Position numbers and translations under genes: made by a program. The notes under the pieces were generated by a model, which saw nothing but the letters and a program-made list of their open reading frames with translations, searched no databases and was not told where the DNA came from. From IMG/VR virus record IMGVR_UViG_3300037119_000600, positions 1-25,403 of that record: a stretch of DNA of 25,403 nt, one strand, 5' to 3'. Below, piece after piece: positions 3,660 through 17,516 of this stretch. Position 1 is the stretch's first letter. The number at the start of each line of letters is the position of its first letter. The stretch is from a virus.

Positions 3660-5621
3660 ATGGGCGCATTTGACAAGTTTATAGCTGCATCCGCTCGCAA
3701 GCATGGTGTATCTGAGGAGTATTTAAGGAAACTTATACAGTATGAGAGTAGAGGTGATCCGAACGCGGTATCGCCGACAGGAGTTAGAGGAATAGCACAG
3801 ATTACAAGTGAGACGGGTAGGGGATTAGGATTAAATAGACGCAATTTTACCGATCCTGCTGCACAGATTGACGCGGCAGCACAATTAGCAAAGAAGAATC
3901 AAGGACAATTAACGAGAGCGTTAGGTAGACCGCCTACCGACGACGAATTGTATTTGGGACATTTGCAGGGTGCGGGCGGAGCGAGTGCGTCATTTAAAAA
4001 TCCGAATGCCCGCGCGATTGATATCCTCGATCCTGACGCGGTGAAGGCTAATCTCCCTAGGGAATATAGGTCGCGGCTTAATACTATTACGGCGAAGGAA
4101 TATCAGGATATCCATCGAGCCAACTTCAATAGGTCGCCCGGTACGATAGATATTACCGACCAACCCAGCCTTAAAACTCTTAATCCCCCCTCGCCAAAAG
4201 GGGATAGATTAGACAAGCAACCAACGATTCCCCTGAGCCAACTAGCTCCAACCGAGCAGAGTACACCAATGGCACGATATCCGAGCTATGATCAGGCGGT
4301 CGCCGAAGCAATCAATCAGGTTAATGGTGGTAGGGGTGGCGTGCAATATGCAGGATTAGTATTACCGGCTATTAGGGGACCGGGTGGGAGGATGAGAGCT
4401 AATCCTCTTAAAACTCCGAATGTGCAGAAAGGATTACCGAGTCCTGAACAAGTGCCCGGAGCGCGAACGCCGAGTGCGCAAGAGGAAGTTGAGAATGCAA
4501 GGAAGGCGTATGAGAGACAGATGGAGTTGAGGGCTAAAGCTGATCGAGTGAGAAGAGGTGAACCCGCTGAAGTACAAGGTCCGCAACAGAGTGCTCCGAT
4601 TGCTGGTGGAAGTTCACAATTAACTCCGCCGCCTCCTCCCGGATCAACTGCACCAATTCAACCACGAGGAGTACCGACGCAGAGGATTACGAGAGATCAA
4701 GCTACTGGTGCTGCGACAGTTGGTGGTGCTGCGGCTGTAGGTGCGGCAGCGGGTGATGCAGCGAGTAGAAGGAGCGATCCTGCTGTTGATGCAGTTCAAC
4801 AATCTATTCAAGGTGCGCCTGATCCTAACTTGGCTGTACAGAATGATCCGGCTAGACAAGCTGCAATAGCTGCAAGGATTGCGGGTAGACCATCAGGACA
4901 AATTCCTGCACAACGTGGTCCCGGTGCATCTGTACAGAGTGAGGCGTCATCTCCTGCTGCTAATAGTATAATGGCCCAAGCCGCACCTATGATTCAAAAA
5001 GTGATGAGTGATCCAGAAGGTAGACAGGCTGTTCAGACAATAGTGAGAAAGGTTGCAGAGACGCATGGTCAACAAGCGGATATGCAGAATGATCCGACTT
5101 ATTATCAGATGATGGCATCGAGAGGACAGATGCCTGGTGGGATGCAAGATGACCGTGCGATGGAACGTGCGGTAATGATGGATAATCAACGAAGGATGCA
5201 AGGTGGCGCACCTTCTGCGCGCGGTGTGCCAACAGCAAGAGGTAGACCACAAGTAGATGTCGGTGAAGCACAATATACTAAAGATCAGAGTCAAGTACCA
5301 CAGGAGAAAGGTGATACGAGAGGACTGCCACCTGAAGTAGCGCAACAGTTTCCAGTTCCTCCAACTCCTGCTAATATACCGACACCAGTTCCACAGGGAT
5401 ATCCACAAGTCCCACCGCTTCCGTCACGAGTACCTACACAACGTATTCAACCCGGTGGTCCGTTGCCTAATGGTAGACCCGGAGCAGCACAACCTTGGCC
5501 TTATCAAACTCCTCCGTCTCCTGAAGCTACTAATCCTAGTGGTCAGATGCAACAACCACAGATGGACCCTGCGATGATGCAATTGATGTCGTTCTTTACA
5601 GGTGGCGGTAATGTCGGATAA
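3660..5621 (+). CDS. Lytic transglycosylase with long disordered tail
   Basis: A 653-aa protein. Residues 1 to about 160 form a soluble-lytic-transglycosylase-type domain that cleaves peptidoglycan. The expected catalytic glutamate is E29 in YESRGDP, followed by the G-x-x-G-x-A-Q motif at 41-47 and a later helix YLGHLQGAGGASASF. From about 170 to the end the protein is low in complexity, rich in Pro, Gln, Ala, Gly and Met, with three VPT-Q/A-R repeats. The long tail and its place at the head of the virion genes suggest a virion-associated wall enzyme used at DNA entry, as in T7 gp16, rather than a simple endolysin. The C-terminal tag MMQLMSFFT is shared with the gene at 7322. Arginine is mostly AGA/AGG. 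The stop overlaps the next gene by 11 bases. Confidence 0.85.
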   Translation: MGAFDKFIAASARKHGVSEEYLRKLIQYESRGDPNAVSPTGVRGIAQITSETGRGLGLNRRNFTDPAAQIDAAAQLAKKNQGQLTRALGRPPTDDELYLGHLQGAGGASASFKNPNARAIDILDPDAVKANLPREYRSRLNTITAKEYQDIHRANFNRSPGTIDITDQPSLKTLNPPSPKGDRLDKQPTIPLSQLAPTEQSTPMARYPSYDQAVAEAINQVNGGRGGVQYAGLVLPAIRGPGGRMRANPLKTPNVQKGLPSPEQVPGARTPSAQEEVENARKAYERQMELRAKADRVRRGEPAEVQGPQQSAPIAGGSSQLTPPPPPGSTAPIQPRGVPTQRITRDQATGAATVGGAAAVGAAAGDAASRRSDPAVDAVQQSIQGAPDPNLAVQNDPARQAAIAARIAGRPSGQIPAQRGPGASVQSEASSPAANSIMAQAAPMIQKVMSDPEGRQAVQTIVRKVAETHGQQADMQNDPTYYQMMASRGQMPGGMQDDRAMERAVMMDNQRRMQGGAPSARGVPTARGRPQVDVGEAQYTKDQSQVPQEKGDTRGLPPEVAQQFPVPPTPANIPTPVPQGYPQVPPLPSRVPTQRIQPGGPLPNGRPGAAQPWPYQTPPSPEATNPSGQMQQPQMDPAMMQLMSFFTGGGNVG

Positions 5622-6249
5622 CGTATTAGTATTAGCTGATGGTACGAAGATTGATAAGAGTACCGGAGGAGTTATTGGTGAGGAGGTTGAGAAGCCTGAG
5701 TTACTGGATGCAGAGACGCCAGAGTTGGATAAGACGAGTGAGGAAGAGGTTGATAAGGAGGAGATTGTAGAGATTAAGAAACGTATTCCTGTTAATAGGT
5801 ATCTGAATGATTTACCGGGTGATATTAATAGTACGAGGGCGATTAGCGTGATTGCAGGATTGACGCTATTTGGGTTGAGTGATAGGGAGATGTCTTATAT
5901 TTGTAATACGGATGTTGATAAGATTGATGCAATTAAGAAGTCGCAGAGATATGAGGATTTCTCGAGTGGTATTATTGACAATGTGATGCGTGCTCAAGGC
6001 GACAATGTGAGGGCGATGTTTGTTAATAATGCGAAGAATGCCGCGGAGAATATTATTGCAGGACTTAAGAGTAAGATACCAGAGGTTAGACAAATGGCGA
6101 GTAGAGAAGTTTTAGATAGAGGTGGCTTTCGTCCTATTGATGTCGTCGAACATCGTGTTAGGCATGAGAACGAATTGAAGATCGTACATATTAGAGGAGA
6201 TGCGGAGAAGCACGTAGTGATTGATGCTGATTATGATGAGGCGATGTGA
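5611..6249 (+). CDS. Probable terminase small subunit
   Basis: A 212-aa protein. The start at 5611 is preferred over GTG at 5602 because GGTGG lies 5 bases upstream. Residues 1-55 are acidic. A helix-turn-helix-like segment follows (LTLFGLSDREMSYICNT and the next helix). The C-terminal half, with a helical array ending in ASREVLDRGGFRPIDVVEH, resembles small terminase subunits known from phages, which recognise DNA and stimulate the large subunit. The assignment is by pattern and not certain; another DNA-binding protein is possible. It lies about 5.5 kb from the large subunit, which is unusual. It overlaps both neighbours. Confidence 0.6.
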   Translation: MSDNVLVLADGTKIDKSTGGVIGEEVEKPELLDAETPELDKTSEEEVDKEEIVEIKKRIPVNRYLNDLPGDINSTRAISVIAGLTLFGLSDREMSYICNTDVDKIDAIKKSQRYEDFSSGIIDNVMRAQGDNVRAMFVNNAKNAAENIIAGLKSKIPEVRQMASREVLDRGGFRPIDVVEHRVRHENELKIVHIRGDAEKHVVIDADYDEAM

Positions 6250-6461
6250 TGAGTGTACTCGAAGATTTAAGAAACATACGTAAACTTTCCGGCGAGAAGT
6301 TAGGCGCGGATCAAGGACGAGAGATAAAAGTATATCCTAATCGTCGTGCGCCTCGCGAGATACGCGAATATGCAAACCCAATGGTAAATACACCAGACCT
6401 GATGCAGTACATGCGAGAGTTAGAGATGCATAAGGGTATGTTTTCAGATGAACGTGATTGA
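6249..6461 (+). CDS. Hypothetical protein, 70 aa
   Basis: A charged protein of 70 residues with no recognised family. The ATG overlaps the previous stop (TGATG), so it is translationally coupled to the probable small terminase gene; a GTG one codon earlier is less likely. It is rich in Arg, Glu and Met, with a predicted helix at the C-terminus (PDLMQYMRELEMHKGMF). No membrane segment is present. It is the first of a run of small hydrophilic proteins that separates the two terminase genes. Confidence 0.65.
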   Translation: MSVLEDLRNIRKLSGEKLGADQGREIKVYPNRRAPREIREYANPMVNTPDLMQYMRELEMHKGMFSDERD

Positions 6462-6470
6462 GGCGATGTG

Positions 6471-6869
6471 ATGGACGAGGATAGCATTTTATTTCAGGCT
6501 ATGAAGAATGAGATGAATCCTCAGATTGATCAGGCGTCGATGAAGCGATTCATTGGTGCTGAACAATATCCACTTGGAGTCGAGATGAGACAAGGTGGAC
6601 CGGGAGGGTTTGCTAATCCTCTACGAATGGCAAGACCACAGAGTGATTTCGCAGGAAAACCGGCACACGCGAATACTAATCCAGAGTATGTAGCGCCATC
6701 GTGGCGTCCGAAGCAACCACGCGGCCCAGATACAGGTGTTATAGATAGTTATCGGAATTACTGGAGAGCACAAAAATATGTGAATGAGCGCGAGCCATAT
6801 GCACCACAAGATCCAAATGCTGCTCGAAATATGTTACAGAGGCTCAGAGACCTCTTAAAAGGCGAGTAG
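6471..6869 (+). CDS. Small hydrophilic protein, paralogue 1
   Basis: A 132-aa protein of unknown function, paralogous to the next gene. ATG at 6471 has GAGG 7 bases upstream. The N-terminal half is shared: DEDSILFQAMK, a second helix, then LG-V-EMRQGGPGG, NPLR, and DFAG-PA-AN. The C-terminal halves diverge, ending here in a basic helix (NMLQRLRDLLKGE). It has no membrane helix or signal peptide and is rich in Gln, Pro and Met, like the tail of the transglycosylase. A minor virion component or assembly factor is plausible from its place among virion genes. Confidence 0.75.
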   Translation: MDEDSILFQAMKNEMNPQIDQASMKRFIGAEQYPLGVEMRQGGPGGFANPLRMARPQSDFAGKPAHANTNPEYVAPSWRPKQPRGPDTGVIDSYRNYWRAQKYVNEREPYAPQDPNAARNMLQRLRDLLKGE

Positions 6870-6872
6870 GCG

Positions 6873-7322
6873 ATGATGGATGACGAAGATAGCATCTTAT
6901 TTCAAGCGATGAAAGAGCAAATGAATCCGCAGGCTGAACTGGCTGCGATGAAGATGATTCCGCCCGGTAGTCCTTATCAGTTGGGATTGGAGATGAGACA
7001 AGGTGGTCCGGGTGGTGTGGTGACTAATCCTATGAGATCGGCACAGCAACCAACTGATTTCGCAGGTAGACCCGCAATGGCGAACGATAATCCTGCGAGA
7101 GTGAGGCCAGATGTTGCATCAAATTTTAATGATGTCCCAGTGCGTCCATCTGGGAATGTGGTAAATCAATATCAGTCGCAATGGCAGGATCAAAAGTATC
7201 GGAATATGATTAATCAGGCGGCGGCGCAGAATCGTGTTCAGAGTGATAAGACGATAATGGAGACGATTAAGGATTTCTTCAATAAGAATAGGCCGGGTCG
7301 TGGCGATAAGTGGTGGGACTGA
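6873..7322 (+). CDS. Small hydrophilic protein, paralogue 2
   Basis: A 149-aa protein, the second of the tandem pair; the first ends 3 bases upstream. The start is one of two adjacent ATGs (6873 or 6876), with only a weak AGTAGG-type ribosome site. Shared blocks with the first copy are DEDSILFQAMK, LG-EMRQGGPGG and DFAG-PA-AN. The remainder is Asn/Gln-rich and ends in a basic tail with WWD. The stop overlaps the next ATG (TGATG). Retention of the N-terminal half with a free C-terminal half suggests a common partner for the conserved part. Confidence 0.75.
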   Translation: MMDDEDSILFQAMKEQMNPQAELAAMKMIPPGSPYQLGLEMRQGGPGGVVTNPMRSAQQPTDFAGRPAMANDNPARVRPDVASNFNDVPVRPSGNVVNQYQSQWQDQKYRNMINQAAAQNRVQSDKTIMETIKDFFNKNRPGRGDKWWD

Positions 7323-7819
7323 TGCCTAGATTTGGTGCAGAGAATATACCGAATGCTTTGAAGGAGCAATTCCTCCGCGAGATATATAGGGAGGGCATGT
7401 TTAATAATGATCCGATGAATAGATATCCACAGGAATTCGAGCAAGATAATTATATTCGTGGACCGGAGATGCAGTATGGATCGATCAATGAACCTGTGAG
7501 AAATGAGAGAATACAGGGCGGTGTATATGATGATACGAAGAGTGATGCACAGGGGAGGAAAGATAGTCGTCGTAGAGCAGAAGGTTATGCATATTCGAAG
7601 ACACCAGAACTTGTGCCACTACATCGTAATCAATCACCTATACAAGATGAGCAGTCTGAGATTATTCCACCGATGACACGTAATTCGTTAAGAGATGCGT
7701 ATAACCAACTACCTCAAGGTAATCCTAATATACAGTATCCAGGAACGGTGATGCCTGATCCATTCTCATCGCCGCAGATGGACCAACTTATGCAATTCTA
7801 TACAAATGAGGATATCTAA
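7322..7819 (+). CDS. Hypothetical protein, 165 aa, with a shared C-terminal tag
   Basis: Unrecognised hydrophilic protein. ATG at 7322 overlaps the previous stop; a GTG at 7310 is less likely. The N-terminus is a charged helix (ALKEQFLREIYREGMF), the middle is polar and probably disordered, and the C-terminus is proline-rich. The last residues carry MDQLMQFYT (153-161), matching MMQLMSFFT near the end of the transglycosylase (639-647 of 653) at 6 of 9 positions. A shared terminal peptide on two otherwise unlike proteins suggests docking to the same partner. The next gene starts directly after the stop. Confidence 0.7.
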   Translation: MPRFGAENIPNALKEQFLREIYREGMFNNDPMNRYPQEFEQDNYIRGPEMQYGSINEPVRNERIQGGVYDDTKSDAQGRKDSRRRAEGYAYSKTPELVPLHRNQSPIQDEQSEIIPPMTRNSLRDAYNQLPQGNPNIQYPGTVMPDPFSSPQMDQLMQFYTNEDI

Positions 7820-10393: not shown

Positions 10394-10560
10394 TGCCTAT
10401 AGGACTTATATTCTGGGTTATAATGCTGTTGATCTTGGTGTTTGGTTTCTTGCGTACATCTCCAGCATTTGCTCCCTACTCATGGGGGTGGGATGTTCTC
10501 CTCTATATACTTCTATTTCTGTTGGGATGGCACTCATTTGGTTTTATGATCCGCGCGTGA
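10393..10560 (+). CDS. Two-span small membrane protein, holin candidate
   Basis: A 55-aa very hydrophobic protein with two membrane helices, about residues 5-19 (LIFWVIMLLILVFGF) and 36-52 (VLLYILLFLLGWHSFGF), joined by a Pro/Ser loop (RTSPAFAPYSWGW). The ATG overlaps the previous stop, with GAGGAGG just upstream. Two-span proteins of this size are typical of class II holins, and similar small membrane proteins occur in many phages. No endolysin is adjacent, so the lysis role is unproven. Confidence 0.75.
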   Translation: MPIGLIFWVIMLLILVFGFLRTSPAFAPYSWGWDVLLYILLFLLGWHSFGFMIRA

Positions 10561-10625
10561 AGAGCGTAACGTCACTATGCCTCTGTATCCTGAACGGCCA
10601 CCTGATATATGTAAAGGTTGCTAAA

Positions 10626-10901
10626 ATGAATGAAGCTGATAGGATTAGAAGAGAGCTACTATTAAAGGGAGCGATGATGGAGCAGTCCGATCCTAATCAG
10701 CCTGTACCAATGGCGGGTTACCCTAATCGTCCGGGTGCCTATTCACCATCGCAACTTTATCAAACTCTGCTGAAATCAGGTATTCCAAAAGAAGAAGCAC
10801 GACAGAAGACATTTAATATGATGCAAGAGAATAATGCTGCGATAAATGAGGAGTTGCCTGATCAGACAGAGAAACTGTTCCCGATGGAGGGAGAGTTCTG
10901 A
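10626..10901 (+). CDS. Small hydrophilic protein, paralogue A
   Basis: A 91-aa protein. ATG at 10626 has AAAGG 8 bases upstream; an in-frame start near 10482 would overlap the membrane gene and is rejected. The N-terminus MNEADRIRRELLLKGAMMEQ matches that of the next gene (MSEADRIKRGQQLTGAMREQ) at about 60 percent of positions; the rest is unrelated. The middle is a Pro/Gly linker, then a helix (QLYQTLLKSGIPKEEARQK), then an acidic C-terminus. The stop and the next ATG overlap (TGATG). Function unknown; the layout parallels the pair at 6471-7322. Confidence 0.75.
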   Translation: MNEADRIRRELLLKGAMMEQSDPNQPVPMAGYPNRPGAYSPSQLYQTLLKSGIPKEEARQKTFNMMQENNAAINEELPDQTEKLFPMEGEF

Positions 10902-11227
10902 TGAGCGAGGCTGATAGGATTAAGAGGGGACAGCAATTAACTGGAGCAATGCGCGAGCAGATGTTTCAGGAGGGTATTAAAGGGACAGATTGGTATAAAG
11001 AGTTTGTTGCGAAATATGGCGAAGGGCCTAATCTCCAAGACCCGAACTATGATTATCGGGAGGCATGGGATGCTGGTGTGAGACCTGATGTACGCGATCC
11101 CGGCGATATGATGCTCCACTGGAATAGTCAATTTAAAGGACCTAATCATCCTAATAGATTTGTTCAGGGGATAGATACACATACAGGACAGCCGGTACAG
11201 CTAGTGGAGCCTGAGAACGAAGAATGA
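10901..11227 (+). CDS. Small hydrophilic protein, paralogue B
   Basis: A 108-aa acidic protein sharing the first 20 residues of the preceding gene. The later part (YDYREAW, then DMMLHWNSQFKGPNHPNRF) resembles a small module I recall from other phage proteins, of the form W-x-S-x-F-K-x-P-N-H-P, with no known function. It therefore looks like a fusion of a local N-terminal tag to a more widespread module. There is no membrane helix. A 58-base gap with no clear hairpin separates it from the next gene. Confidence 0.75.
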   Translation: MSEADRIKRGQQLTGAMREQMFQEGIKGTDWYKEFVAKYGEGPNLQDPNYDYREAWDAGVRPDVRDPGDMMLHWNSQFKGPNHPNRFVQGIDTHTGQPVQLVEPENEE

Positions 11228-11758: not shown

Positions 11759-13342
11759 ATGACTAATTATATTGTAAAAGAGGGCGGATTGAATGATCGA
11801 TTCTTCAAATCGAGAGCTAAGATTCGTATTCTTGGTGGTGGGTTTGCTAATGGCAAGACTGCTACAGCATGTATTACAGCTTTGGAGATGGCGAGAGACT
11901 ATCCGGGTAGCAATGGCCTTATGGCTCGCGCGACATACCCCAAACTTAACGACACCTTGCGAAAGGAGTTCATCAAGTGGTGTCCGAAGCAGTGGATCAA
12001 AAACTTTCCACTAGGACAGAATAGCAGCAATATGTGTACGTTGAAGAATGGTACAACTATCAACTTCAGATATATGCAGCAACAGTCGCGTGGAGATGAA
12101 GCAGCGACAAGTAACTTGTTGAGTGCGACTTACGATTGGATCGTTGTGGACCAAATAGAAGACCCGGAGATCGTACATAAGGACTTTCTTGATCTTATGG
12201 GACGACTTCGTGGCTCCACTCCATACACGGGCAACGATCCGACAATGCCTCACACGGGTCCGCGTATGATGATCTTAACTTGTAACCCAACGCGGAATTG
12301 GGTCTACAAGAAGTTGGTCCACCCGTACCATCTATATAAGCAGGCGGGTACGATTATGCCCGATCTGATAGTATTGAGGGACAAAGATGGAAAAGTTGTA
12401 TTCGAAGATGGTAAGCCTAATTTGTTACTGGATGTTATTGAGGGTAGTACGTACGAAAACGCACATGTCTTGGAGCCAGATGTTATTCAGGGACTTGAGA
12501 GCACGTATACTGGGCAGATGAAGGAGAGATTTCTATTAGGTAGATGGGCAGCTTATGAAGGATTGGTGTATCCACAGTATAGTGACATCGTACATACGGT
12601 AGAACATAATGAGATTATGCAATTGTGGGATCGGCTTACAGATCAGGGATATCTTATACCGTTGGTCGATGGCTATGATTTTGGTATTGCTGTTCCTAGT
12701 TGTTACCTTATTAGCTTTGTTGACGATGATGGTAACGTGATTTTAATGGATGGCTTCTATAAGAAGGAGATGGGTATCTTAGAGCAGGCTGATAAGATTA
12801 AGGTCATCAGAAATAAGTGGGGACTTCCTCAAGATCAACAGTGTTGGGCCGATCCTAATATATTTAGGAGATTTGGGAGTAGTGCAGGCAATGTTAATGA
12901 GACAGTCGCTAGTCAATTTGCCAACTTGGGCGTCCCGATGCGTCGAGGGAATAACGATGTACTCGGGGGGATTGTCAAAGTCGGCAGTTATCTCGCTCCT
13001 ACTCGCTTTCATCGTAATCCTTTCAGTGGGGCTTTTGGTGCTCCTCATATATTTATAAGTAGAGATCTAGATTGGTGGATCGATGAGATTGGTGGCTATT
13101 ATTGGGATAAGGATACAAAGGGTGAGAGAGACGATAAACCGAATGATAAAAACGACCATGCGATGGATACTACGAAGTATATGTTGACTAATCTCGATGC
13201 GATTGCGAAGCCCGACCCATTTAGGGATGTAGAGCCTAAATACTTGCAATGGATGGAAGGCGAGTATAGGGTGCATGAAGCGAAGAAATGGCGTCATAGG
13301 AATAGTAGGACACAAGAGATGAGCGAGATTGCAAATGGCTGA
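11759..13342 (+). CDS. terL: Terminase large subunit
   Basis: A 527-aa DNA-packaging motor, about the usual length. The N-terminal ATPase shows Walker A GGGFANGKT (26-34) and Walker B WIVVDQIE with D131 and E134. The C-terminal RNase H-type nuclease shows an acidic motif in DGYDFG (about 306) and a second acidic cluster KNDHAMDTTKY (about 465). The ATP-driven motor docks on the portal and cuts concatemers. The start at 11759 is the first ATG in an open frame but lacks a nearby ribosome site (see 11716-11758). The probable small subunit is 5.5 kb upstream. It overlaps the portal gene by 8 bases. Confidence 0.95.
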   Translation: MTNYIVKEGGLNDRFFKSRAKIRILGGGFANGKTATACITALEMARDYPGSNGLMARATYPKLNDTLRKEFIKWCPKQWIKNFPLGQNSSNMCTLKNGTTINFRYMQQQSRGDEAATSNLLSATYDWIVVDQIEDPEIVHKDFLDLMGRLRGSTPYTGNDPTMPHTGPRMMILTCNPTRNWVYKKLVHPYHLYKQAGTIMPDLIVLRDKDGKVVFEDGKPNLLLDVIEGSTYENAHVLEPDVIQGLESTYTGQMKERFLLGRWAAYEGLVYPQYSDIVHTVEHNEIMQLWDRLTDQGYLIPLVDGYDFGIAVPSCYLISFVDDDGNVILMDGFYKKEMGILEQADKIKVIRNKWGLPQDQQCWADPNIFRRFGSSAGNVNETVASQFANLGVPMRRGNNDVLGGIVKVGSYLAPTRFHRNPFSGAFGAPHIFISRDLDWWIDEIGGYYWDKDTKGERDDKPNDKNDHAMDTTKYMLTNLDAIAKPDPFRDVEPKYLQWMEGEYRVHEAKKWRHRNSRTQEMSEIANG

Positions 13343-15608
13343 TAATCAGGAAGAATTTAATGCCATTAGCGATAGTCTTAGTGAAGGAGGTATTGAGCCT
13401 ACGAAAGAGATTGAGAAATATAGTCCGTCTTATAAGATGATGGCGGATACGAAGATTCCTGTCAGTAAGCATCTGGGGAAGTTGTGGAAATCGAGGAGGG
13501 ATCAGGCAAAGAGTAAGTTGAAGAATGAAGGGATAGCGGATGCATGGGACGAATGTATTCGTTACTATAATAATGATCAAGTCACTCAGAGTAGTGTACA
13601 GGGTAGTCCAAACACGTCAAGAATGGCGCGTAAAGGCACGGGAGTCTCCGATGAACACATCGAAACGGAGAATGTTGTATTCGCCAATACTACCGCACTT
13701 GTACCCGCTACCTACGCTAAAAATCCCGATATCGAAGTCACAGCTAACGATAAGCAGGATGAAGCGACTACCTACTTCGCCACATGCGCGGAGAGGCTGG
13801 TCAACACATTATTTGCGAAGAAGACATCGCCCGGCGTCAATTTGAAGCCAAAGGTGCGTAAAGCTATTATAATGTGTACGTTGACTAATGTCGCGTATTT
13901 GGAGATGGGTTGGACGGAGAAAGAGGATAGTAGTGAGGCCATCCTTAATGAAATAAATTATGAGGCGGATAGGTTGGCTAAAGCGAAAGATATGCAGGAG
14001 ATTGAGGAGATTGAAGGATGTCTGGCGGCATTAGAGGATAAAGTTGATGTGTTATCGCCTGCTGGACCGTGGTTGAAGTTTAGACATCCTAAAGATGTGC
14101 TACGTGATCCAAGTACGACGATGAATGATTTGACTGATTGTAATTGGTTGATGATCGCTGACTTCGTTCCCACTAATCTGTTGAGGGCTATCTACTTCAA
14201 GAAGTCAGAGGATAAGAGCGACGAGTGGGAATCGATATATAAGCCGACACACGTGTTGAATGCGAAATCACAAGGAGGACATCTAGAAGACGAGATTAAT
14301 AGTTTTTCGCTTCTATCAGATAATAAGGATTATCAAGCATATGGGTATGATGATGAAGAGAGCTATTGCAAGGCGCAATATACGAAAGTTTGGCGAGTCT
14401 ATGACAAAGTTACGCGCAGGCTTCTACTATTCCACGATGCGAACTGGTCGTGGCCCATCTGGGTCTGGGATGATCCATACAGTCTCACAAACTTCTTCCC
14501 CGTCTTTTGTTTGGAGTTTTATACCGATCCCGAGGGCGACTATGCTCGATCTGAGGTCATGTACTACCTCGATCAACAAGATGCGATCAACGAGATTGCG
14601 AGTGAAAGGAGGAGAGCGATAGCATGGGCGAGGAAGAATTTATTCTACGATATAGATGCGATAAAAGATCCTGCCGTCATTTCAGCCTTTCTAAGCGGTG
14701 CGGAGAAGGGTGGTGCAATCGGAGTAAAAGTGCCAGATGGAAAGAAGATGCCAGACTTAATATTCAGCCTACCTCCCCCTTCTGGACAATTTATGCAGTT
14801 GTTCGATCCTCAACCGTACTTACAAGCCATCGACCGCGTATCAAGCGTTACAAATGTGATGAGAGGCGTCGAGTATAAGACTAATACTACAAATAAAGCC
14901 ATTGAGTCTTATGAGTCGCAGACACAGACGCGACTAGATGAGAAGATCGATCAGATTGAAGAATTCATTGGGAATATAGGAATGAGTCTGCTGGAATTGT
15001 GTGCGAGTAAGATGCCAGCGGAGATGGTGGCTGCGTTGATAGAGGATAAGTGTGGAGAGGTATGGAAGCAATTCACACCTATGTCACCCTCAGAGTTACA
15101 TGCTAAATTCTCGATGCAAATGGTTGGGGGGAGTGCGCTAAAACCAACAGCTAGAGCGAAGAAGGAGGCGGCACTACAGATGGGACAAGTTCTAGGCCAA
15201 TTTGGTAAAGCAGTTCCCGCTGCGGTGCTCGTAATGATGAGAGTATTCGAGAGAGCGTTCGATGAAGTTGTAATTACCGAAGAAGATTGGGCGATGATTA
15301 GAGCTTCAATTGAGAAACAACTTGCACCTGATCAACCTGAACAGCAACAACAGCAACCCGGTGGCGACCAGATTGCTGAAATGGAGCAGATGTTCAACCA
15401 ACTACCACCACAGGCGAAAAAGGCGGTAGGAGATGCTACAGCAAAAGGCGTACCCATCAGACAGGCGATGGAAGAGATAATGATGAGAGTGCAGCAATCT
15501 AAACAGAATAGAGTTACGGATATCCATAATCAGATGGCGACTCCGACACAACCTAGTATAGCTAGAGGACAACAAAATGGCGCCCCGACGGGAATCCCCC
15601 AACAGTGA
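13335..15608 (+). CDS. Portal protein
   Basis: A 757-aa portal, the dodecameric channel at one capsid vertex to which the terminase and adaptor bind. The length is typical of podovirus-type portals (P22-like). Supporting segments are FRHPKDVLRDPSTT, the wing/stem region PVFCLEFYTDPEGDYARS with DQQDAINEIASERRR, and LFDPQPYLQAIDRVSSVTNVMRG. The C-terminus is Gln/Pro-rich (EQQQQQPGG), then helical. ATG at 13335 has GAGCGAG 7 bases upstream. It lies between terminase and scaffold, as expected, and overlaps the scaffold gene by 32 bases. Confidence 0.9.
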   Translation: MADNQEEFNAISDSLSEGGIEPTKEIEKYSPSYKMMADTKIPVSKHLGKLWKSRRDQAKSKLKNEGIADAWDECIRYYNNDQVTQSSVQGSPNTSRMARKGTGVSDEHIETENVVFANTTALVPATYAKNPDIEVTANDKQDEATTYFATCAERLVNTLFAKKTSPGVNLKPKVRKAIIMCTLTNVAYLEMGWTEKEDSSEAILNEINYEADRLAKAKDMQEIEEIEGCLAALEDKVDVLSPAGPWLKFRHPKDVLRDPSTTMNDLTDCNWLMIADFVPTNLLRAIYFKKSEDKSDEWESIYKPTHVLNAKSQGGHLEDEINSFSLLSDNKDYQAYGYDDEESYCKAQYTKVWRVYDKVTRRLLLFHDANWSWPIWVWDDPYSLTNFFPVFCLEFYTDPEGDYARSEVMYYLDQQDAINEIASERRRAIAWARKNLFYDIDAIKDPAVISAFLSGAEKGGAIGVKVPDGKKMPDLIFSLPPPSGQFMQLFDPQPYLQAIDRVSSVTNVMRGVEYKTNTTNKAIESYESQTQTRLDEKIDQIEEFIGNIGMSLLELCASKMPAEMVAALIEDKCGEVWKQFTPMSPSELHAKFSMQMVGGSALKPTARAKKEAALQMGQVLGQFGKAVPAAVLVMMRVFERAFDEVVITEEDWAMIRASIEKQLAPDQPEQQQQQPGGDQIAEMEQMFNQLPPQAKKAVGDATAKGVPIRQAMEEIMMRVQQSKQNRVTDIHNQMATPTQPSIARGQQNGAPTGIPQQ

Positions 15609-16560
15609 TACTGAAGATGCAGTACTAGATAACGTACCTGGTCTCGCTGAAGAGACTGGAGCAGACGAGTTTGAAGGTGTAGAGGAAGCGAGCGACGAAG
15701 GCGCGCAGGATGATCCACGACAACAAGTTGATCCTAACCAACAGCGTCAACAAGATGATGGTCAGGTTCGATATGACCAAGCTGGTAATGTTATTGACGC
15801 TCGCGGTAATATTGTCGCTCCTGCTGGTAGAGGTAGGAGGCTAGACGAACAGAATAAACGCTATCGGGGCCTTCTTGAAGCTAAAGATAGAGAATTACAT
15901 CAGTTAAAAGTAGCACAGGCGGAAGCCAAATACCTCAATGGTGCGCCGCAATCTCTGGGGCTAAATGCCGATGAAACGGCTGCGGCTCTTGACATGATGG
16001 CACTCTTCAAGTCTAATCCGGGCCAACTCGTCCAAATCGTTCTAGCAGAGGCATCCGCTAAAGGTATCGATCTAAATAAGTTACTCGGTTCGAACATGGG
16101 TAGTGTTCAGACCGAAGCGATTAAAAAGATGCTCGATGAGCGTCTTGGTCCTCTCGACAAGATGAATAAGCAACGAGAGGAAGATACCCGTATCAATACG
16201 GCGGTGACACATAGATATAATACGTTCCTGACTAAATACCCTGACGCAGAGCCGCATCAGGATGCTATCGCAAACTTAATGCGGACTCAAGGTCTTCACG
16301 AGACTGAAGCATACTTTAGAGTTCGCGAGTTTGCGCTTCGGAATGGGTTGGATTTTGATCAACCTCTTGGTCCTCAATTAGCTGCTATTATGCAGCAGGG
16401 AGGTCAGCCGAGGCAACAGGCATCCCGTCGTCGTCCAATCGTTAATGGTAGAACACCATCTAATGGGATGACAGAGAGGAAATCAGAGGTTGCTTCACCA
16501 GAACGATCATATGCATCGATCATTGATGAAGCACTCATAGAAGCAGGGTATCAAGGATAA
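15577..16560 (+). CDS. Capsid scaffold protein
   Basis: A 327-aa protein in the standard position between portal and major capsid genes. Residues 1-60 are strongly acidic (EEASDEGAQDDPRQQ), about 85-115 form a coiled coil (DEQNKRYRGLLEAKDRELHQLKV, quoted here only as its span), and the C-terminal region has a basic patch (RQQASRRRP) typical of the capsid-binding end of scaffolds. ATG at 15577 has GAGGA 7 bases upstream, inside the portal gene. No protease motif is seen, so the scaffold may leave intact. Its stop overlaps the capsid start. Confidence 0.8.
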   Translation: MAPRRESPNSDTEDAVLDNVPGLAEETGADEFEGVEEASDEGAQDDPRQQVDPNQQRQQDDGQVRYDQAGNVIDARGNIVAPAGRGRRLDEQNKRYRGLLEAKDRELHQLKVAQAEAKYLNGAPQSLGLNADETAAALDMMALFKSNPGQLVQIVLAEASAKGIDLNKLLGSNMGSVQTEAIKKMLDERLGPLDKMNKQREEDTRINTAVTHRYNTFLTKYPDAEPHQDAIANLMRTQGLHETEAYFRVREFALRNGLDFDQPLGPQLAAIMQQGGQPRQQASRRRPIVNGRTPSNGMTERKSEVASPERSYASIIDEALIEAGYQG

Positions 16561-17516
16561 TGTCGGTCCTCGCAACAGTCCTCAATTCAACTCTCACTAA
16601 GTCACGTGGGAAATTGATTATGGCCGCCGTTAAGTCCAATGCGTTTGTGGCTTGGGCAATGGCGACTAATCGTGTGGAGTACGAAGATGGTGGTTGGGAA
16701 ATCACTAATCCCCTCACCGTTGGACGAAATCCGAATGTGGGAACGTATGAATACTATCAGACGCTCCCCATCAATCAGACCAATGAATTCACGACTGTCC
16801 GTTATGGATGGAGTAGATTCGCTGGTACGGTTATCATCTCCGAACAAGAGGAAGATGAGAATAAGGGTAGAGCACAAATCTTCAAGCTGATGAAAGCGAA
16901 GATGGAAGTGCTTGAGGAGAGTATTAAGGAACAGTTCTCCGCATACTTGTATGCTCCCGGTGGCGGAACTGATCCTCTCGGACTTGCTACTCTTATTCCT
17001 GATGATCCGACTACTGGCACGCTAGGTGGTCTTAGTCGTGCAACTGAACCACAATGGCGCACATCATCGTATGACTTCAACGTAGGTGGTATCGATTCCA
17101 CTAATATCGAGGAAGCTCTTGATGACGTGCTTATGGATCTCACTGTTAAAGGTGAGCGTCCAGACATCATGTTGACTGGACGTAACTTGTACCGCATCTA
17201 TAGAGCGGCCGTTAGAGATAAGGTGACTATTCAGTTGGGCGAATCCAACAATGGCAAGAAGATGATGGACCTTGGCTTCAAGGGTATCAGTCATCAAGCC
17301 GTTCCGATGCTCTACGATGAAGATTGCCCGGTGAATAAGATCTACTTCATCAACTCTAAATATCTTCGTCTTCACATCCTTAAACATGTGAACATGAAGG
17401 TTAAAGAACTTACCGCACCGTGGAACGTGGATGCGAGTGGTAGTCGTACCATCTGGCAGGGTCAATTCTGTCTGTGGAAGGCTTATCGTACTCACGCTGT
17501 CCTTATCAACGAGTGA
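16560..17516 (+). CDS. Major capsid protein
   Basis: A 318-aa HK97-fold type coat protein, by position and pattern. The N-terminal helix region (about 1-35) is followed by an extended E-loop-like stretch (TYEYYQTLPINQTNEFTTV), a long acidic helix (IFKLMKAKMEVLEESIKEQ), a glycine loop, and the P-domain-like ERPDIMLTGRNLYRIYRAAV. It ends with a beta strand (QGQFCLWKAYRTHAVLI). The start overlaps the scaffold stop (TAATG). Arginine and other codons shift to the CGT/CTC type seen in highly expressed genes, unlike the block at 3660-7819. Confidence 0.85.
   Translation: MSVLATVLNSTLTKSRGKLIMAAVKSNAFVAWAMATNRVEYEDGGWEITNPLTVGRNPNVGTYEYYQTLPINQTNEFTTVRYGWSRFAGTVIISEQEEDENKGRAQIFKLMKAKMEVLEESIKEQFSAYLYAPGGGTDPLGLATLIPDDPTTGTLGGLSRATEPQWRTSSYDFNVGGIDSTNIEEALDDVLMDLTVKGERPDIMLTGRNLYRIYRAAVRDKVTIQLGESNNGKKMMDLGFKGISHQAVPMLYDEDCPVNKIYFINSKYLRLHILKHVNMKVKELTAPWNVDASGSRTIWQGQFCLWKAYRTHAVLINE

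Follow-up and report, generated by a model that had tools for sequence, protein, structure and literature searches.

A short peptide recurs at the ends of two otherwise unlike proteins of an uncultured tailed phage, a transglycosylase (TG) and a small protein without family match (SM), and judging from the sequences it is very likely a docking motif common to unrelated proteins. We arrive at a common docking site because unrelated, flexible and fast-changing proteins keep one short helix. The window, by which we mean the whole stretch of DNA analysed, is a 25,403-base IMG/VR contig of a clade of uncultured soil-type phages, in which genes for the terminase large subunit (TerL), portal, major head protein and tail fibre were recognised. 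The portal gene occupies 13335-15608, the scaffold candidate 15577-16560 and the coat gene 16560-17516. The closest annotated proteins to its coat protein are only ~27% identical, and at the DNA level the gene island described below had no match among 50,697 phage records. Since a TerL search across bacterial genomes gave no relative, no host was assigned. The island runs in the order TG, small-terminase-like gene, 70-aa gene, two tandem copies of a third family, and SM, with the following features in window coordinates.

3660..5621, + strand: TG, transglycosylase, 653 aa, with an N-terminal SLT domain, ~480 residues mostly predicted to be disordered, and the C-terminal tag
5574..5600, + strand: tag on TG, MMQLMSFFT, first in conservation among gap-free 8-column windows of the TG family; predicted helix at residues 637-647
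5611..6249, + strand: small terminase subunit-like protein (TerS), without the tag, between the tagged genes; PHROG 2538 (terminase small subunit), E 1.1e-5; start inferred by comparison with relatives (MSDxxVLADGTKID)
6471..6869, + strand: third family, copy a, 132 aa (alignment A3)
6834-6857, + strand: degenerate motif in copy a, in the C-terminal helix NMLQRLRDLL (alignment A3)
6876..7322, + strand: third family, copy b, 148 aa (alignment A3, motif scans)
7257-7280, + strand: motif METIKDFF in copy b, 13 residues ahead of the protein end (alignment A3, motif scans)
7322..7819, + strand: SM, small tagged protein, 165 aa, without family match; low-confidence AlphaFold2 model
7778..7804, + strand: tag on SM, MDQLMQFYT, first in conservation among gap-free 8-column windows of the SM family

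The third-family genes (6471-6869 and 6876-7322) are a tandem duplication, with METIKDFF kept in one copy and LQRLRDLL degenerate in the other. Elsewhere in the window, adjoining small proteins upstream of TerL (10482-10901 and 10901-11227) have the N-terminus M[S/N]EADRI[K/R]R in common and differ in their remainders, and the same N-terminus is found on neighbouring proteins in L001 (9421-9738 and 9731-10000); as far as sequence can tell, this pair is a second shared terminal peptide in the same phages.

The tag match within the window

The tag occupies residues 639-647 of the 653-aa TG (nt 5574-5600), six residues from the end, and residues 153-161 of the 165-aa SM (nt 7778-7804), four residues from the end. 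MMQLMSFFT and MDQLMQFYT are identical at 6/9 positions, so that the placement and agreement reported in the earlier note were confirmed. The same note had called the two proteins otherwise unlike, and this held as well, since profile-profile comparison aligned 16 columns only, which are the tag (hhalign of the TG and SM alignments: single match, probability 93%, E 3.2e-7). Whole-gene paralogy of TG and SM was rejected, as the profile comparison showed nothing in common but the tag. Within the window alone, TG and SM formed the best C-terminal pair among 29 proteins, a match that was marginal at p ~0.04: when the 29 C-termini were shuffled 200 times, 4% of the shuffles did equally well or better. 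The marginal match is settled by the recurrence of the tag in relatives.

Conservation of the tag in relatives

Searching with TerL yielded 29 IMG/VR contigs, most of them at 81-99% identity and two, L024 and L025, at ~55%. The tag recurred on TG and SM in every relative in which both genes were complete, except L021, where TG is tagged and a different 194-aa protein in SM's place has only an internal DPMSVLQEFY. Throughout the near clade the tag was present wherever the TG end was present, as MMQLMQFF followed by a Gly-rich end; MMQLM[QS]FF was kept in all TG genes found in the clade, and M[MQD]QLM[QDK][FY]Y was kept by SM in all lineages but L021. By lineage, SM ended in MMQLMQFYQNNGGEI, MMQLMQFYTDNGGSI, MQQLMDFYTGGGGVEL, MQQLMDFYINGGSDV or MDQLMKYYTQGGGENI, and the whole SM of relatives was only ~25-35% identical to that of the window. 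TG and SM were the top C-terminal pair of the genome in the window and in 5/5 long near relatives, of which four are ~46 kb and the fifth, G005, is apparently complete because TerL runs across its ends; no comparable C-terminal tag pair was found in eight more distant genomes. When IMG/VR was scanned for the DNA pattern of MMQLMxF[FY], a sizeable coding frame was obtained only in the tag clade. SM as query found nothing in IMG/VR, alignment A2 found only a contig already known, and a search with alignment A1 added no new clade.

Mean pairwise identity was 0.97 over the eight tag columns of TG versus 0.50 elsewhere, and 0.79 versus 0.36 in SM, and the tag ranked first among gap-free 8-column windows in both families. 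The earlier note had set the TG tag behind a Pro-rich region and had made its presence in relatives decisive; the tag is indeed conserved, and the description needs correcting in that the variation of TG lies in its catalytic region and Pro-rich linker. Synonymous differences inside the tag amounted to 17% (TG) and 31% (SM) of identical residues, a count limited by the many Met residues, which have no synonyms. Because synonymous codon changes occur inside the tag, the constraint acts on the protein, and a DNA-level explanation was rejected on the same ground. These data also bear on whether the tag could be a functionless remnant of duplication or recombination between gene ends. The TG and SM genes lie 2 kb apart and the match is one short block, as such an origin would predict. 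However, the similarity ends at 16 columns, conservation in both families peaks at the tag, where synonymous changes occur, and each family keeps its own signature (FF in TG, Y at position 8 in SM), and we consider a remnant highly improbable.

Between phages, the C-terminal half of TG aligned at 36-50% and the catalytic part in only 1/5, as if differing catalytic modules sat on a constant tail. The SLT module of the window's TG (3660-4100) is rather unlike those of relatives despite the conserved tail, and its sequence makes swapping of the catalytic domain between the window and its relatives likely. In L013 (5497-5973), the SM N-terminus IIREVMNDPE resembles a conserved internal TG helix, KEVMKDPQ, and may be a second motif common to SM and TG.

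Further carriers of the motif

The tag had been described in two proteins and at the C-terminus; further carrier families came to light, and the motif proved to lie near the N-terminus in one of them and internally in the L021 protein. Scoring the TG/SM profile over all proteins brought up MDALMRFF or MDTLMRFF, at 17.5 bits, near the N-terminus of a 74-79 aa protein encoded just upstream of TerL in L003 (904-1143) and beside TerS in L004 (3528-3752). Third-family proteins ended in GMMQRILDFYRG, GIMQRIKDFYSNN and TIMETIKDFFNKN (alignment A3), plus the degenerate NMLQRLRDLL of one window copy; apart from that copy, the aligned C-termini fit a loosened motif, M-x-x-[L/I]-x-x-F-[F/Y], whose fullest form is MxQLMxF[F/Y]. 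The loosened motif also occurs in the L021 replacement protein. In all, five protein families carry the motif, and four of them lie in one island adjoining the small terminase gene.

A scan of 422 near-clade proteins (107,677 aa) gave 26 matches, all in carrier proteins, compared with a shuffle mean of 1.04. Counted per genome, there were 18 island matches in 8,396 aa and 0 in 81,955 aa of other proteins; the formal probability of this restriction should not be taken at face value, because the loosened pattern was written after some cases had been seen and the genomes are related. Motif and profile scans found the tag on none of the scaffold, portal, coat or ejection-cluster proteins. Scaffold candidates contained a faint look-alike, LDMMALFKSNP, in distant relatives GAQLMKSFNDNP, scoring ~9 bits or less.

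The tag as a predicted amphipathic helix

Positions 1, 3, 4, 5, 7 and 8 of the tag are invariant or almost invariant, and changes are seen at positions 2 and 6. When the tag is drawn as a helical wheel (100 degrees per residue), the two changing positions come to lie at 100 and 140 degrees and the conserved positions take up the arc from 200 through 0 to 40 degrees, a split that would correspond to one exposed face and one broad buried face. AlphaFold2 run on the alignments placed helices exactly at the tags (SM 151-161, TG 637-647). The SM model, with helices at 11-25, 75-90 and 151-161, was mostly disordered (mean pLDDT 52), and TG was likewise mostly predicted to be disordered (mean pLDDT 44), with low pLDDT beyond short helices. 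Confidence in the tag block was low, at ~63 in SM and 47-50 in TG, and for this reason we take the models only as compatible with a peptide that becomes helical when bound. By prediction and pattern, then, the tag appears to be an amphipathic helix.

A hydrophobic, uncharged core is also what a membrane-binding amphipathic helix would have. The tag spans just ~11 residues, however, and its invariant Gln and Met in TG and SM suggest a specific protein contact over general hydrophobicity, which makes membrane binding very improbable. A C-terminal degron was set aside, as 4-11 variable residues follow the tag.

Alternatively, the helices might bind each other, with TG, SM and the third-family proteins forming one complex without a separate receptor. 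The wide Met/Leu/Phe face could self-associate, and the genes of all motif carriers share one island with a constant gene order, where co-expression would be expected. Against this, the core residues are fixed despite differing partners, and L021 has a tagged TG without a tagged SM. The SM of L013 has K at position 6 and Y at position 7 while its TG is canonical. Furthermore, a homotypic helix should tolerate exchange among Leu, Ile and Met, and none is seen at positions 1, 4 and 5 of TG and SM. We therefore regard tag-to-tag assembly as unlikely.

Binding to the DNA sliding clamp was considered as well, since Q-L-M-x-F-[F/Y] is reminiscent of the motifs by which bacterial proteins bind the clamp, and M-x-x-[L/I]-x-x-F-[F/Y] of the PIP box; the spacing and the C-terminal placement behind a disordered linker are similar to these motifs. 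In place of the defining Gln, however, the third family has R or T, the 74-79 aa protein has A or T, and L021 has V; the PIP-box Q is replaced by M. With the leading Gln not invariant, both readings were rejected. No clamp was found among the G005 proteins scanned, the G005 polymerase is of family A, and it is hard to see why an enzyme acting on peptidoglycan should bind a clamp, all of which leaves this explanation barely credible. In L115 (3473-5959), an N-terminal uracil-DNA-glycosylase superfamily domain (PF03167, E 7.8e-13) is fused onto a DNA polymerase A.

The transglycosylase: virion enzyme or endolysin

TG belongs to the SLT transglycosylases, as residues 8-85 match PF01464 (E 4.6e-12; 46 bits against a cut-off of 21.3) and the catalytic Glu is conserved. 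E29, G44 and Q47 were invariant in relatives, E29 in eight homologues. The protein matched PHROG 342 (internal virion protein with endolysin domain) with E 7.7e-18; the SLT domain was nearest to PHROG 342 and T7-type gp16 (gp16 E 0.006).

That TG is an endolysin, and that the tag builds a lysis complex with a holin or spanin outside the virion, has to be weighed because no other peptidoglycan hydrolase was found: none was recognised among the G005 proteins scanned, and a search of five genomes for phage lysozyme was negative. Small membrane and lipoprotein-like genes occur within the TG-TerS-TerL stretch, and in T7 the holin and Rz genes adjoin the terminase genes. One such gene, for a small lipoprotein-like product (LLLSGC) just upstream of TerL in L005 (9564-9824), possibly encodes a spanin of the outer membrane, in which case a Gram-negative host would be indicated. 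On the other side, ~480 mostly disordered residues behind the catalytic domain with several conserved short motifs among them are unusual for an endolysin, internal virion proteins and tail proteins are among the best PHROG matches of TG, and a 77-aa gene with one membrane helix is missing from several tagged relatives. A lysis complex thus seems to us rather improbable.

A location in the head is favoured because TG is of an enzyme type that occurs in phage virions, because in G008, G009 and G020 the likely ejection cluster has an SLT protein encoded next upstream of a ~1380-aa protein, and by analogy with T4. In the tag clade, a 165-176-aa non-SLT protein is found at that place. The synteny argument rests on three similar genomes, as that position of the ejection cluster is without an SLT protein in other distant relatives. 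It also counts against a virion role that the canonical-looking ejection proteins of these phages are without the tag, and that L021 keeps the tag on TG with only an internal, looser motif on its small protein.

Discussion

A shared amphipathic docking peptide, as the earlier note had proposed, is strongly supported by its conservation, the helix-face pattern, the restriction to one island and the recurrence in further families. We infer a common partner for the tag; that this partner is in the virion is the less well supported step. As the best single mechanism, we tentatively propose, at slightly less than an even chance, that the tag loads TG and small internal proteins into the head. The tag would be a short linear motif forming an amphipathic helix, usually at the end of long flexible proteins, and this helix would bind one conserved groove on the common partner, a candidate being a procapsid component such as the scaffold, the portal or the coat interior. 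TG and a changeable set of small internal proteins would in this way enter the head before DNA packaging, and TG would exit together with the DNA and breach the peptidoglycan during infection. The small disordered cargo could possibly be host-takeover or anti-defence factors.

Literature searches on the loading of transglycosylases into virions and on the use of short linear motifs by phage virions gave no matching case, and known systems resemble the proposed one in part. The capsid targeting sequence (CTS) of T4 is N-terminal and is removed by the prohead protease. The present tag has an unrelated sequence and is usually C-terminal, as in TG, SM and the third family, lying near the N-terminus only in the L003/L004 protein; moreover, one carrier is a wall-cutting enzyme, and packaging of the carriers is putative. 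In the window block that holds portal, scaffold candidate and capsid, no protease family was matched among the part of the proteins scanned, a result that divergent proteases may escape. The likeness lies in one short sequence being present on several unrelated proteins of one phage, as the T4 CTS is a short conserved sequence on highly diverse small internal proteins and targets them to the scaffolding core (PMC3012670). In its logic, T4 is the nearest precedent, and in the C-terminal layout encapsulins are. Encapsulin cargo-loading peptides are short, C-terminal, carried on enzymes and bind an HK97-fold shell (PMC8346489). TG similarly has a C-terminal peptide behind a flexible linker on an enzyme, but the motif differs, and terminase, portal and major head protein mark a tailed phage here rather than an encapsulin shell. 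T7-type gp16 has the same SLT enzyme class as TG, although its domain is part of a ~1320-aa core protein, whereas TG is separate with a disordered tail and tag. The P22 ejection proteins gp7, gp16 and gp20 are a possible analogue for procapsid loading through scaffold, and we know of no shared terminal peptide reported for them. The P22 ejection proteins co-assemble with scaffold (PMC12005531).

Taken further, the tag may be a modular, cargo-independent helical signal, typically C-terminal, that loads a wall-cutting enzyme and fast-changing small disordered proteins into the head, a capsid-targeting system whose sequence and usual position are unrelated to those of T4; we regard this fuller reading as possible, if doubtful. 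How phages choose the non-structural proteins of their heads is known in detail for few systems. If the tag is a loading signal, internal proteins of uncultured phages would become identifiable by sequence alone, the tag would single out a group of small, quickly evolving proteins that probably reach the host cell, and it would provide a ready peptide for loading foreign cargo. Even with a partner outside the virion, a motif present in five families and absent from the remaining proteome represents a directly testable interaction.
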